From: Candidatus Poribacteria bacterium
GTDB lineage: Bacteria > Abyssobacteria > SURF-5
Direction of reading: 5' to 3'
Assembly (NCBI GenBank): GCA_016215705.1
Contig: JACRIR010000173.1
Location: 1 to 14,942 of the forward strand
Length of the DNA: 14,942 bases
Under the pieces are notes generated by a model that saw only the letters and a list, made by a program, of their open reading frames with translations, was not told where the DNA came from and made no database searches. Numbering within the stretch: the first letter of the stretch is position 1; each line of letters opens with the position of its first letter. The position numbers and the translations under genes are program-made. Shown piece after piece: positions 1,080-14,861 of this stretch.

Positions 1080-1958
1080 CTAGGAAGCTTTTTTTTTAGC
1101 TGCATCCACTATGTCGTCAATAATCTGATAGGCGGATTTATTGACGTCATCGGCGAGGTCGACCCTGGTTGGCAGAGCTATGCGAGCAGCCCTTCGGATG
1201 GCGTCGGAGCCCTGAAATTGCGCAGCCAACTCCACCATGCTGATCGCTGCCCTGACACTGGCCCCCCGCCGTATCTGCGGTGTTTCACGGGTTGCCCGAA
1301 CTACGGTAACAGCCGTCCTGATCAAATCGTCGTGGGCATGCAGCGTCTCCGGGACATTCAATCGAACTATTTCCACCTCTTCATCATATGACTGATACTC
1401 GAGAAGGATGAGTTCAAAACGGTCACGAAGGGCTTCGCTTAGGTGACTGGTTGCCACGAATTCTCGCGGGTTCTGAGTGGCAATCACCGTAAAACCGTCA
1501 CGCGCTGCGATCTCGCCGTATTTTGGAACAAACAGGAGGCGTTCATCTAAACCGGGGAGCAAGACGTTTTGAACCGACTCAGGCATTCGATTGAGCTCGT
1601 TGATGAACAGAATCCCGGATTCAAGCATTGCCTGGGTCAGCGGGCCCGGAATGAATGAGGACTGACTGTAACCTTTCGCGAGCACGATCGGTGGATCGAA
1701 CCAACCAACGAGCTTTTGCTCGCTGTAGCTTTCGTCGCCGTCGACTCTGAAGAATGGACGGTTCAGATGGCGTGCAACTGCGAGCGCAAGCACGGTCTTG
1801 CCCACACCTACGGGGCCTTCGATGAGCAAGTTCCGGTTAAGCCTGACACACGCAAGTGCGGCCGCAAGCTCGTCTGCGCGGCCAATAATACGATGTTTCT
1901 GCTGAATGCCCTCTATTTCTTCAGCCAACTCCCCTGCCCTCACAATGCGGTTTGTCAC
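1080..1958 (-). CDS. MoxR-type AAA+ ATPase
   Basis: 292 residues from a GTG start. Walker A is GPVGVGKT (48-55). Walker B is ILFINE (116-121), with Asn where most relatives have Asp. Sensor 1 is ATQNP (160-164) and an arginine-finger region follows in EALRDRF (175-181). The fold is the MoxR/ChlI branch of AAA+, which forms rings and acts on a VWA partner. The gene overlaps the metallopeptidase gene by 38 bp and is followed at once by the VWA gene, so all three are likely one transcript. GGAGG lies about 15 bases before the GTG, rather far; another in-frame GTG at 1943 is possible. The last codons are three AAA lysines then GCT TCC TAG. The nine-A run is a candidate slippery site, so two products may be made: this 292-residue ATPase and an ATPase-VWA fusion. 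Confidence 0.9.
   Translation of the reverse strand: MTNRIVRAGELAEEIEGIQQKHRIIGRADELAAALACVRLNRNLLIEGPVGVGKTVLALAVARHLNRPFFRVDGDESYSEQKLVGWFDPPIVLAKGYSQSSFIPGPLTQAMLESGILFINELNRMPESVQNVLLPGLDERLLFVPKYGEIAARDGFTVIATQNPREFVATSHLSEALRDRFELILLEYQSYDEEVEIVRLNVPETLHAHDDLIRTAVTVVRATRETPQIRRGASVRAAISMVELAAQFQGSDAIRRAARIALPTRVDLADDVNKSAYQIIDDIVDAAKKKAS
1089..1097 (-). promoter_or_regulatory. Candidate -1 frameshift (slippery) site, nine A
   Basis: Nine consecutive A on the minus strand are read by the ATPase frame as three AAA codons, three codons before its stop. A -1 slip on A-AAA-AAA enters the open VWA frame exactly at the run; that frame is closed by a TAA immediately 5' of it. I see no strong downstream stem-loop and only weak upstream purine-rich pairing. 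Transcriptional slippage on the same run would have the same effect. Independent initiation at the GTG at 948 is the competing explanation. Confidence 0.45.
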
Positions 1959-2523
1959 GCTTGAAAAGTATTGCCTCCGGAAGCTTGGGCTTCAAGCCCA
2001 CAACTTCGCCGAATCGCCTCCGAAGCGCCTCGTGATTGAAACGAAGAAAATGGGTCATCTTATGGCTATGAGGCTCGCGCAGATATCCCTCTGATAAAGA
2101 CTGGACAGTCGCATCATATTTCTTTTCAGAGTGCGAGTGCTGGTAGAAACGGCCGGGGAACCTGCGAATGTCGCCATTGAACGCGGGACTGATGTGATAA
2201 AGCTCGTGGAACAATATCGTGAGCTTCTCGTCGAAAGAGAGATTCAAAAACCTCGGCACGCAGAAATAGATCACATAGAGTATTTCATTCCCGTTGTACA
2301 TAATCTTGGGTATCCGACAATACCAGTTCCTGCTCGTCTGTATTGTCCGGCGCCCCCCTTGGAATTTGAGCGGCACGAGCTTCGCCTGGAGCCCGTGTCG
2401 CTTGCCGTTGCGGGAACGCGACACGCCCACGAGGATTCTGTGGCTGTCAATATGCCGCAAAGCTTCACAGTGACGAGATATGTCACCGACAAGTTTCTTC
2501 ATATGATAAGAGTAGTCAAACAT
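1921..2523 (-). CDS. Putative zinc metallopeptidase (HExxH), first gene of the AAA+/VWA module
   Basis: 200 residues. The zinc-protease motif HELYH lies at 106-110 (H106, E107, H110) in the helix FDEKLTILFHELYHISP. A later His-rich stretch (H129, H131) could supply a third ligand. The layout resembles the small 'phage metallopeptidase-like' putative proteases; I infer this from the motif and flanks only. The frame is open to a TTG at 2613, but ATG 2523 has GAGGTG six bases upstream and begins at a sensible domain edge (MFDYSYHMKK), so I chose it. The extra 30 codons would then be part of a ~130-base leader from the promoter at 2662-2690. The 3' end overlaps the ATPase gene by 38 bp, which suggests coupled translation. 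No signal peptide, so it is probably cytoplasmic. Substrate unknown. Confidence 0.75.
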   Translation of the reverse strand: MFDYSYHMKKLVGDISRHCEALRHIDSHRILVGVSRSRNGKRHGLQAKLVPLKFQGGRRTIQTSRNWYCRIPKIMYNGNEILYVIYFCVPRFLNLSFDEKLTILFHELYHISPAFNGDIRRFPGRFYQHSHSEKKYDATVQSLSEGYLREPHSHKMTHFLRFNHEALRRRFGEVVGLKPKLPEAILFKRDKPHCEGRGVG

Positions 2524-2661
2524 GTGCCCCACCTCATGACAATTCAACCTCGGCCGGGTCTCAGCGCCCGAGCCGATCAACTGCTCGTGAAACGAATCCG
2601 GATTGGGGGTCAAACGACGTGCAGTGTGGGATTATGAGGACGTACCTTCGGCCCAAAGAAA

Positions 2662-14222: not shown

Positions 14223-14313
14223 GGTTTATGGTTCATGGTTTATGGTTCATAGTTCATGGTTCATAGTTTATGGTTCATGGTCTATGGTTCACGGTCTACG
14301 GTTTACAGTCAAT
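14223..14313 (+). repeat. Array of thirteen 7-bp units, consensus RGTYYAY
   Basis: Thirteen heptamers stand head to tail without a gap. Twelve fit RGTYYAY exactly (GGTTTAT, GGTTCAT, AGTTCAT, AGTTTAT, GGTCTAT, GGTTCAC, GGTCTAC, GGTTTAC); the last is decayed. All variation among the twelve is by transition. Units ending in C gather at the 3' end. It is the same family as the array at 13697-13738. Confidence 0.9.
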
Positions 14314-14390
14314 AGGTTCCACCGCAAATGTTGAGCAGTGCGCTTTGGTTGTTTTCCTTTCGTTGTTCCCCTTGATAAGGAAGCCTGGTG

Positions 14391-14410
14391 CTCCACGCCC
14401 GGGCGTGGAG
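14391..14410. repeat. Perfect 20-bp palindrome
   Basis: CTCCACGCCC followed directly by its complement GGGCGTGGAG, with no loop. It could extrude as a cruciform, bind a dimeric protein or be a mobile-element end. No T-run follows, so it is not a terminator. Confidence 0.7.
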
Positions 14411-14524
14411 TTGATTGTTTGGCCATGCGCTCCTTCCCGCGCGCATGTTTTGAACTGTGAAGACAAGCGGCTGCCTCCGGTCCCCCACCACGCCTGCCAG
14501 AAAGAAGGCAAAAGGCGAAAGGGT

Positions 14525-14714
14525 AAAAGCAAAGAAGAAGAGATTGCTTCGCTCCGTTCGCAATGACCGTCGCGCATAAAGCCTTCCTCTCGCGAAGGAA
14601 GGCGAAAGGTCAAAGGGCCGCAGGCCCGAGGCGAAACGGGAAAAGCAAAGACGAAAAAGAGATTGCTTCGCTCCGCTCGCAATGACCGTCGCGCATGAAG
14701 CCTTCCTCTCACGA
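14525..14714. repeat. Tandem pair of ~72-bp direct repeats, period about 116 bp
   Basis: Copy 1 (14525-14595) and copy 2 (14641-14714) share AAAAGCAAAGA, GAGATTGCTTCGCTCC, CGCAATGACCGTCGCGCAT and AAGCCTTCCTCTC with few changes and one 3-base indel. The spacer carries GGCGAAAGG-type units like those before copy 1, so the true period includes them. The GATTGCTTCGCTCC...CGCAATGAC core is, from memory, a dispersed repeat seen in many unrelated bacterial genomes. Confidence 0.85.
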
Positions 14715-14861
14715 TTGACCGCGCCACAGGCGCAGTCAGGCGCTCAGGACGACACCCTTTGTGTGATTTCTATGCGACGGCACTGGGACTGCGGGGCCGC
14801 CGCATGGCGAGGGTATTCTCCATGACGGGCGCATGTCGGTTGTAGACCCGGCCTGTTAACG

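Follow-up and report, generated by a model that had tools for sequence, protein, structure and literature searches.

One of the questions raised by this locus relates to how a conserved protein domain comes to be made from a reading frame that has no evident start. Within the window, by which is meant the whole stretch of 14,942 nucleotides that was analysed, the minus strand carries an ORF for a MoxR-type AAA+ ATPase of 292 residues (1080-1958) followed by an open frame for a VWA domain (178-1095; Pfam VWA, E 6.5e-9), and the pair is present as one copy in the genome (G000). The ATPase, the 0-frame product, finishes in ...DAAKKKAS, encoded by GCT AAA AAA AAA GCT TCC TAG with the stop at 1082-1080, and it is inside this run of nine A's, at 1089-1097 and read as AAA AAA AAA in the 0 frame, that the VWA frame opens. 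In the -1 frame a TAA at 1098-1096 takes its two A's from the first two of the run, after which the frame stays open from 1095 up to the TAA ending at 178. The 49 codons scanned between 1095 and the first possible start, a GTG at 946-948, include no ATG, GTG or TTG. The 0 and -1 frames overlap, and the overlap holds an in-register heptamer of the X_XXY_YYZ type, A_AAA_AAA (1095-1089). An earlier note on this DNA had described such a start-free frame opening within the A9, and had deduced a shift of -1 on A_AAA_AAA; sequence and frame checks agree with both statements and place the run at 1097-1089. How would the VWA domain be translated, and why should the two frames meet at a run of A's?

The two frames very probably constitute one gene, in which programmed -1 frameshifting at the A9 would yield both an AAA and an AAA-VWA subunit. 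Most ribosomes would pass the run and stop six bases on, releasing the 292-residue AAA+ subunit, while a fraction would slip by -1 on A_AAA_AAA, where tRNA-Lys occupies both the P and the A site, and go on to complete a predicted product of 593 residues, 290 of them from the AAA frame and 303 beyond it. The likely purpose would be to supply a single MoxR-type ring with its two kinds of subunit, only a minority of protomers bearing the VWA/MIDAS arm in the manner of NorQ6-NorD1. The slippage itself, its efficiency and the composition of the ring are what we infer here. The A9 alone could be enough, since in E. coli the frameshifting of chlD cassettes rose from 10% with 7 A's to 40% with 9 and 63% with 11 (PMC3711429).

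The arrangement recurs in the closest relatives. The pair was found in two Abyssubacteria genomes of the same family, one of which is Candidatus Abyssobacteria SURF_17 (L003, identical with L014), where the junctions read TCT AAA AAA AAA GAC TAG and GTA AAA AAA AAG ACC TGA. In both, the A9 lies at the same place with the 0 frame reading AAA AAA AA[A/G], the VWA is in the -1 frame and there is no start codon before a conserved AWxIAxxYH block; the AAA parts share 72-75% identity and the VWA parts 49-57%. The codons upstream of 948, for which the earlier note had asked whether they are conserved as protein, are so. The trans-frame segment at 949-1088 comprises a linker and the start of the folded region, containing the conserved ...DLAWEIA, and the block (D)xAWxIAxxYH spans the GTG itself. 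When the VWA frame was modelled with AlphaFold, residue 1 being the codon at 1086, the model had a pLDDT of 91 and placed one helix at residues 26-36 and another, with a pLDDT of about 95, at 39-47. The GTG is residue 47, within this conserved helix, and initiation there would therefore cut the fold.

These observations bear on the reading in which the VWA is translated independently from GTG948, coupled to termination of the AAA+ frame. The Shine-Dalgarno-like GGGAG that the earlier note had seen upstream is present, but it is part of the TGG-GAG codons for the conserved W-E, and the GTG, which codes for V in the window, is replaced by codons for A and T in the two relatives. Start positions in homologues are scattered, and of 94 loci 17 lack any ATG, GTG or TTG ahead of the conserved W block and 51 lack an ATG there. 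In the remaining 77 of the 94 an ATG, GTG or TTG does occur somewhere before this block, and 25 of 26 T6 loci have a start codon no more than 25 codons after the slip site, so that secondary independent initiation is possible in many homologues. A separate VWA gene beginning at the position of 948, which the earlier note had named as the case that would speak against it, was not found in the family. Separate genes, with the ATG 45 nt past the AAA stop and no slip site, were met only in a Rhodococcus plasmid pair, considered as a counterexample and set aside as a remote outgroup at 28-37% identity. GTG948 is accordingly judged on sequence and model not to be the VWA start, and independent initiation there appears very unlikely.

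How widely is the arrangement kept? Scanning genome contigs with a profile of the AAA alignment retrieved 80 loci, which belong to Thermoplasmata, Hadarchaea, Methanomethylicia, Asgard, Actinobacteria, Chloroflexi, Bdellovibrionota, Myxococcota and other groups. In VWA-profile surveys of sampled genomes, with family membership set at E <= 1e-40, the family was present in 20 of 199 genomes of the class of the L040 genome (Actinobacteria, Thermoleophilia-like), 54 of 191 Bdellovibrionota, 19 of 188 Myxococcota, 13 of 250 genomes in the phylum of the Methanosuratincola locus and 113 of 195 Asgard genomes, the fetched Asgard loci being mostly split. A scan of viral contigs with the VWA alignment gave no relatives, and a MoxR match in Fusobacterium came from a record without annotation. 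Once merged and freed of redundancy, the loci amount to 227 homologous pairs, bacterial and archaeal, of which 194 have the VWA in -1, eight in +1 and 25 as a single in-frame ORF, with none (0/227) in which AAA and VWA are spaced genes. Related genomes are not independent trials and inflate these raw counts; among 92 representatives below 70% AAA identity, 80 are -1, ten are fusions and two are +1. Long open -1 frames are uninformative alone in GC-rich loci. The last 48 nt of each AAA ORF were compared with those of the remaining ORFs of 200 codons or more from these loci (n=719). An in-register XXXYYYZ occurs in 61 of the 62 split homologues of the first set and in 37 of the 719 controls (5%; Fisher p about 1e-63), and a run of at least seven A's in 51 of the 62 against none of the 719. 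On a FastTree of the 227 AAA domains the class of slip site changes at least 37 times and the frame relation nine times, counts that are rough given long branches and relatedness, and from which it follows that the letters drift while the potential to slip is kept. The site and the frame relation are in this way conserved by selection across the homologues, and the A-run and -1 relation which the earlier note had proposed to look for at homologous junctions are found both in the Abyssubacteria relatives and in the wider family.

The same survey decides against the idea that one fused gene has been split, whether through an error of sequencing or assembly or by a recent frameshift mutation that made it a pseudogene. 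Homopolymers are error-prone, the contig is a MAG-like draft, the sequences of the family are mostly from MAGs and some relatives do have single-ORF fusions. Set against this, 194 non-redundant pairs, drawn from numerous assemblies and with varied sites, show the -1 arrangement, and both halves are conserved. The error raised in the earlier note is excluded for the family because the genomes are independent and relatives have slippery sites that are not runs of A, and for the window itself it is extremely improbable.

The sites themselves are diverse. Runs of A comprise A9 (53 pairs), A10 (28), A7 (17), A8 (2) and A11 (1), such that A9-A11 account for 82 of the 194 -1 loci, 54 of these 82 ending in the register ...AAA_AAG. 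Other pairs have T_TTT_TTN (26), A_AAT_TTT (12) or C_CCA_AAA (8), with smaller classes including G_GGT_TTT, T_TTA_AAC and A_AAT_TTC; the non-homopolymer heptamers CCCAAAA, AAATTTT, GGGTTTT and AAATTTC all stand in the correct register. The sites of the family include CCCAAAA with a hairpin, AAATTTT with a hairpin, and TTTTTTCGG. The weakest part of the series is formed by 33 Asgard loci that keep the -1 relation with GAT_TTT only and no canonical heptamer, where single-tRNA slippage on T_TTT is our best guess; a conserved GATTTT, often GATTTTCAATAATCGATGATTTCTC, lies at the junction in L216, L219, L203, L209 and many of L220-L259. Two further loci have no site at all. In seven Asgard loci (L200, L201, L204, L205, L206, L208 and L288) the VWA is in +1 and the sequence AAG TTT TTT CGG is invariant, with variation at the wobble base of the preceding Gly codon. 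These are candidates for a +1 programmed frameshift from TTT to TTC before the CGG codon; in most of them an ATG follows several codons further on, and reinitiation is therefore also possible. A single further locus (L039 / L102) combines A10 with a VWA in +1, for which assembly error, transcriptional slippage and a +1 shift are not distinguished.

Some of these sites have a downstream hairpin, a candidate stimulator. The A9 of the window has no clear stimulatory element, whether SD-like or a downstream hairpin, and a general hairpin across the whole family was ruled out, there being no enrichment of downstream structure (p 0.81); the association holds only for loci without A9. When a hairpin index at 2-14 nt downstream was ranked against controls from the same locus, the mean percentile was 0.82 for mixed heptamers, 0.65 for A7-8 and 0.33 for A9 or longer (mixed versus A9+, p 2.6e-11, and 0.0006 among representatives below 70% identity). 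In eight Asgard A_AAT_TT[T/C] loci 91.7% of stem pairs are kept, with compensatory changes at four of six pairs, and the covariation score is reached by none of 500 shuffles. Covariation was also sought in the actinobacterial hairpin, which is strong with little variation, and is weak there (one of seven pairs, 49 of 500 shuffles).

Could the polymerase slip rather than the ribosome? Were RNA polymerase to add one A, or drop two, within the A9, the same proteins would result, and a run of nine A's, A9-A11 being found in 82 of the 194 loci, is a transcriptional-slippage sequence as well. The loci with A9 or longer lack hairpins, as would fit slippage on a homopolymer if that requires no stimulator, and the same process may explain the A10 +1 locus L039. 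By sequence the two mechanisms would look alike at the A9 of the window and would separate only in relatives with mixed heptamers. In those relatives the heptamers are not long homopolymers, are in ribosomal register and often come with hairpins that in Asgard covary, and the runs of A themselves are biased towards the AAG register, which RNA polymerase would not sense. Transcriptional slippage is possible but unlikely, and ribosomal frameshifting is the favoured explanation.

A further view of the predicted products comes from lineages that encode them differently. The computed 593-residue -1 product forms a single alignment with single-ORF fusions from archaea and Thermoleophilia, in one example with 43% identity over 589 columns (E 5e-169), and the alignment runs through the junction as well as the codons that precede 948. 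In one genome of the Thermoleophilia an AAA-only gene is followed directly by an AAA-VWA fusion gene (L302, G074:C57:139300-143300). By their sequences these would be both predicted products as two genes, a substitute for the frameshift. Several archaeal genomes with fusions have no AAA-only copy, and the AAA-only form may therefore not be needed everywhere. The site drift, fusions and tandem genes together form a natural experiment, with one arrangement and at least a dozen slip-site sequences. On this reading the frameshift arrangement is old and strongly kept in the family across Bacteria and Archaea, giving way elsewhere to in-frame fusion or, in one genome, to tandem genes.

What kind of ring would these subunits form? 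The AAA+ of the window matches Pfam AAA_5 (E 1.7e-24) and belongs to the MoxR type on the NorQ/CbbQ/GvpN side, its closest solved relatives being NorQ and CbbQ, with NorQ as the best per-domain PDB match. Its best NCBIfam match is GvpN-like TIGR02640, at 83.4 bits, below the equivalog cut-off of 266.8. Midasin was considered as the nearest AAA relative and rejected, as its score sums about seven domains and amounts per domain to 55 bits against 74 for NorQ. The VWA has a MIDAS of the form DxSxS...T...D, with D141, S143, S145, T207 and D235 invariant in alignment A3. In the fold search its model aligns over 253-272 columns, most of its length, to the NorD VWA in NorQD structures, with MDN1-MIDAS among the structural matches. 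The family resembles NorQ/NorD, and likewise CbbQ/CbbO and RavA/ViaA (PMC9976466, PMC13036017), in pairing a MoxR-type AAA+ with a VWA/MIDAS arm. NorQ and NorD are products of separate genes and NorD binds NorQ with one copy per hexamer, NorQ6:NorD1 (PMC9976466), whereas here recoding or fusion is predicted to attach the VWA covalently to some of the AAA+ subunits. Midasin/Mdn1/Rea1, also an AAA ring with a MIDAS domain, is an architectural analogue only, having six AAA domains in one chain and a per-domain similarity below that of NorQ.

The closest parallel for the recoding is chlD, where programmed -1 frameshifting is known to produce chelatase AAA+ subunits of two lengths (Antonov et al. 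2013, PMC3711429; Atkins et al. 2016, PMC5009743; Kuznetsov et al. 2022, PMC9227772). In both cases one gene yields an AAA+ subunit together with a longer AAA+ chain that has additional sequence at its C terminus, the site is an A-run or A_AAA_AAR, Bacteria and Archaea are included, and some members have fused ORFs or 3' structure. The parallel drawn in the earlier note is right as an analogy, although by curated models the AAA+ is not itself a chelatase subunit but of a different AAA+ family with NorQ nearest per domain: it scores 34.9 bits against ChlD/BchD TIGR02031 (cut-off 499.55) and 28.8 bits against Cob-chelat-sub TIGR02442 (cut-off 779.45), to which the VWA members match at only about 1e-9. 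The slip sites are also wider in range than those of chlD, extending to C_CCA_AAA, A_AAT_TTT, T_TTT_TTN, G_GGT_TTT and the candidate +1 TTT_TTT_CGG. The failed ChlD/BchD and cobaltochelatase cut-offs set the family apart, as do the main texts of PMC3711429, PMC5009743 and PMC9227772, in which neither MoxR nor VWA is mentioned. A search of a collection of open-access papers gave none that is relevant to MoxR or Asgard frameshifting. As far as sequence and these main texts go, the family is a case of frameshifting like that of chlD in a different AAA+ family, with the reservation that PMC3711429 might include it, without a name, in its 146 clusters. A second and unrelated gene, dnaX, similarly makes two forms of an AAA+ ring subunit through an A_AAA_AAG slip site, the frameshift product in E. 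coli being the shorter form.

The genomic surroundings offer some indication of role. In Bdellovibrionota (L050, L054, L061, L065, L071 and others) the pair is located within lysine 5,6-aminomutase operons with Kam genes upstream of the AAA+, the neighbours being KamD, KamE and a 3,5-diaminohexanoate dehydrogenase-like gene, named from their sequences and, for KamD, confirmed by PF09043. Across Bdellovibrionota genomes 38 have both AAA-VWA and PF09043, ten KamD only, 16 AAA-VWA only and 127 neither (odds ratio 30, Fisher p 2.6e-18). Operon placement and co-occurrence suggest a maturation or reactivation role for the pair there, as a chaperone for a B12 enzyme. PF09043 is absent from the window's genome and its two Abyssubacteria relatives, and in the search for a universal genomic partner none was found, the KamD/KamE link applying in Bdellovibrionota only. 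In all three Abyssubacteria genomes (the relatives being L003/L014 and L004) a PF18894-like gene lies upstream; in the window it is a putative metallopeptidase with a HELYH motif (1921-2613, minus strand; E 3.1e-5, 24.5 bits against a cut-off of 23.7) whose 3' end overlaps the AAA+ start, and it is a possible partner of the pair. Elsewhere in the window, at about 14296-14727 on the minus strand, overlapping ORFs repeat an ERSEAI/ERSNL-like peptide, which suggests an intergenic repeat element and not a gene.

Taken more broadly, and with somewhat less than even confidence, the family may represent an ancient recoded AAA/AAA-VWA ring common to Bacteria and Archaea, with frameshifting determining what share of its subunits bears the VWA. 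The slip site would have been rebuilt repeatedly, including as T-rich sites in archaea and with a +1 switch at the invariant AAG_TTT_TTT_CGG in some Asgard, and other lineages would have fused or tandem-duplicated the gene. To our knowledge few programmed frameshifts in cellular genes are conserved across domains, and very few archaeal slip sites have been characterised; the family supplies concrete ones. Annotation pipelines likely split or mis-start its VWA proteins. The finding makes testable the notion of frameshifting as the setter of a ring's subunit ratio and, if the ancient ring is real, few conserved chromosomal frameshifts in archaea would be as widespread as the one at its junction.
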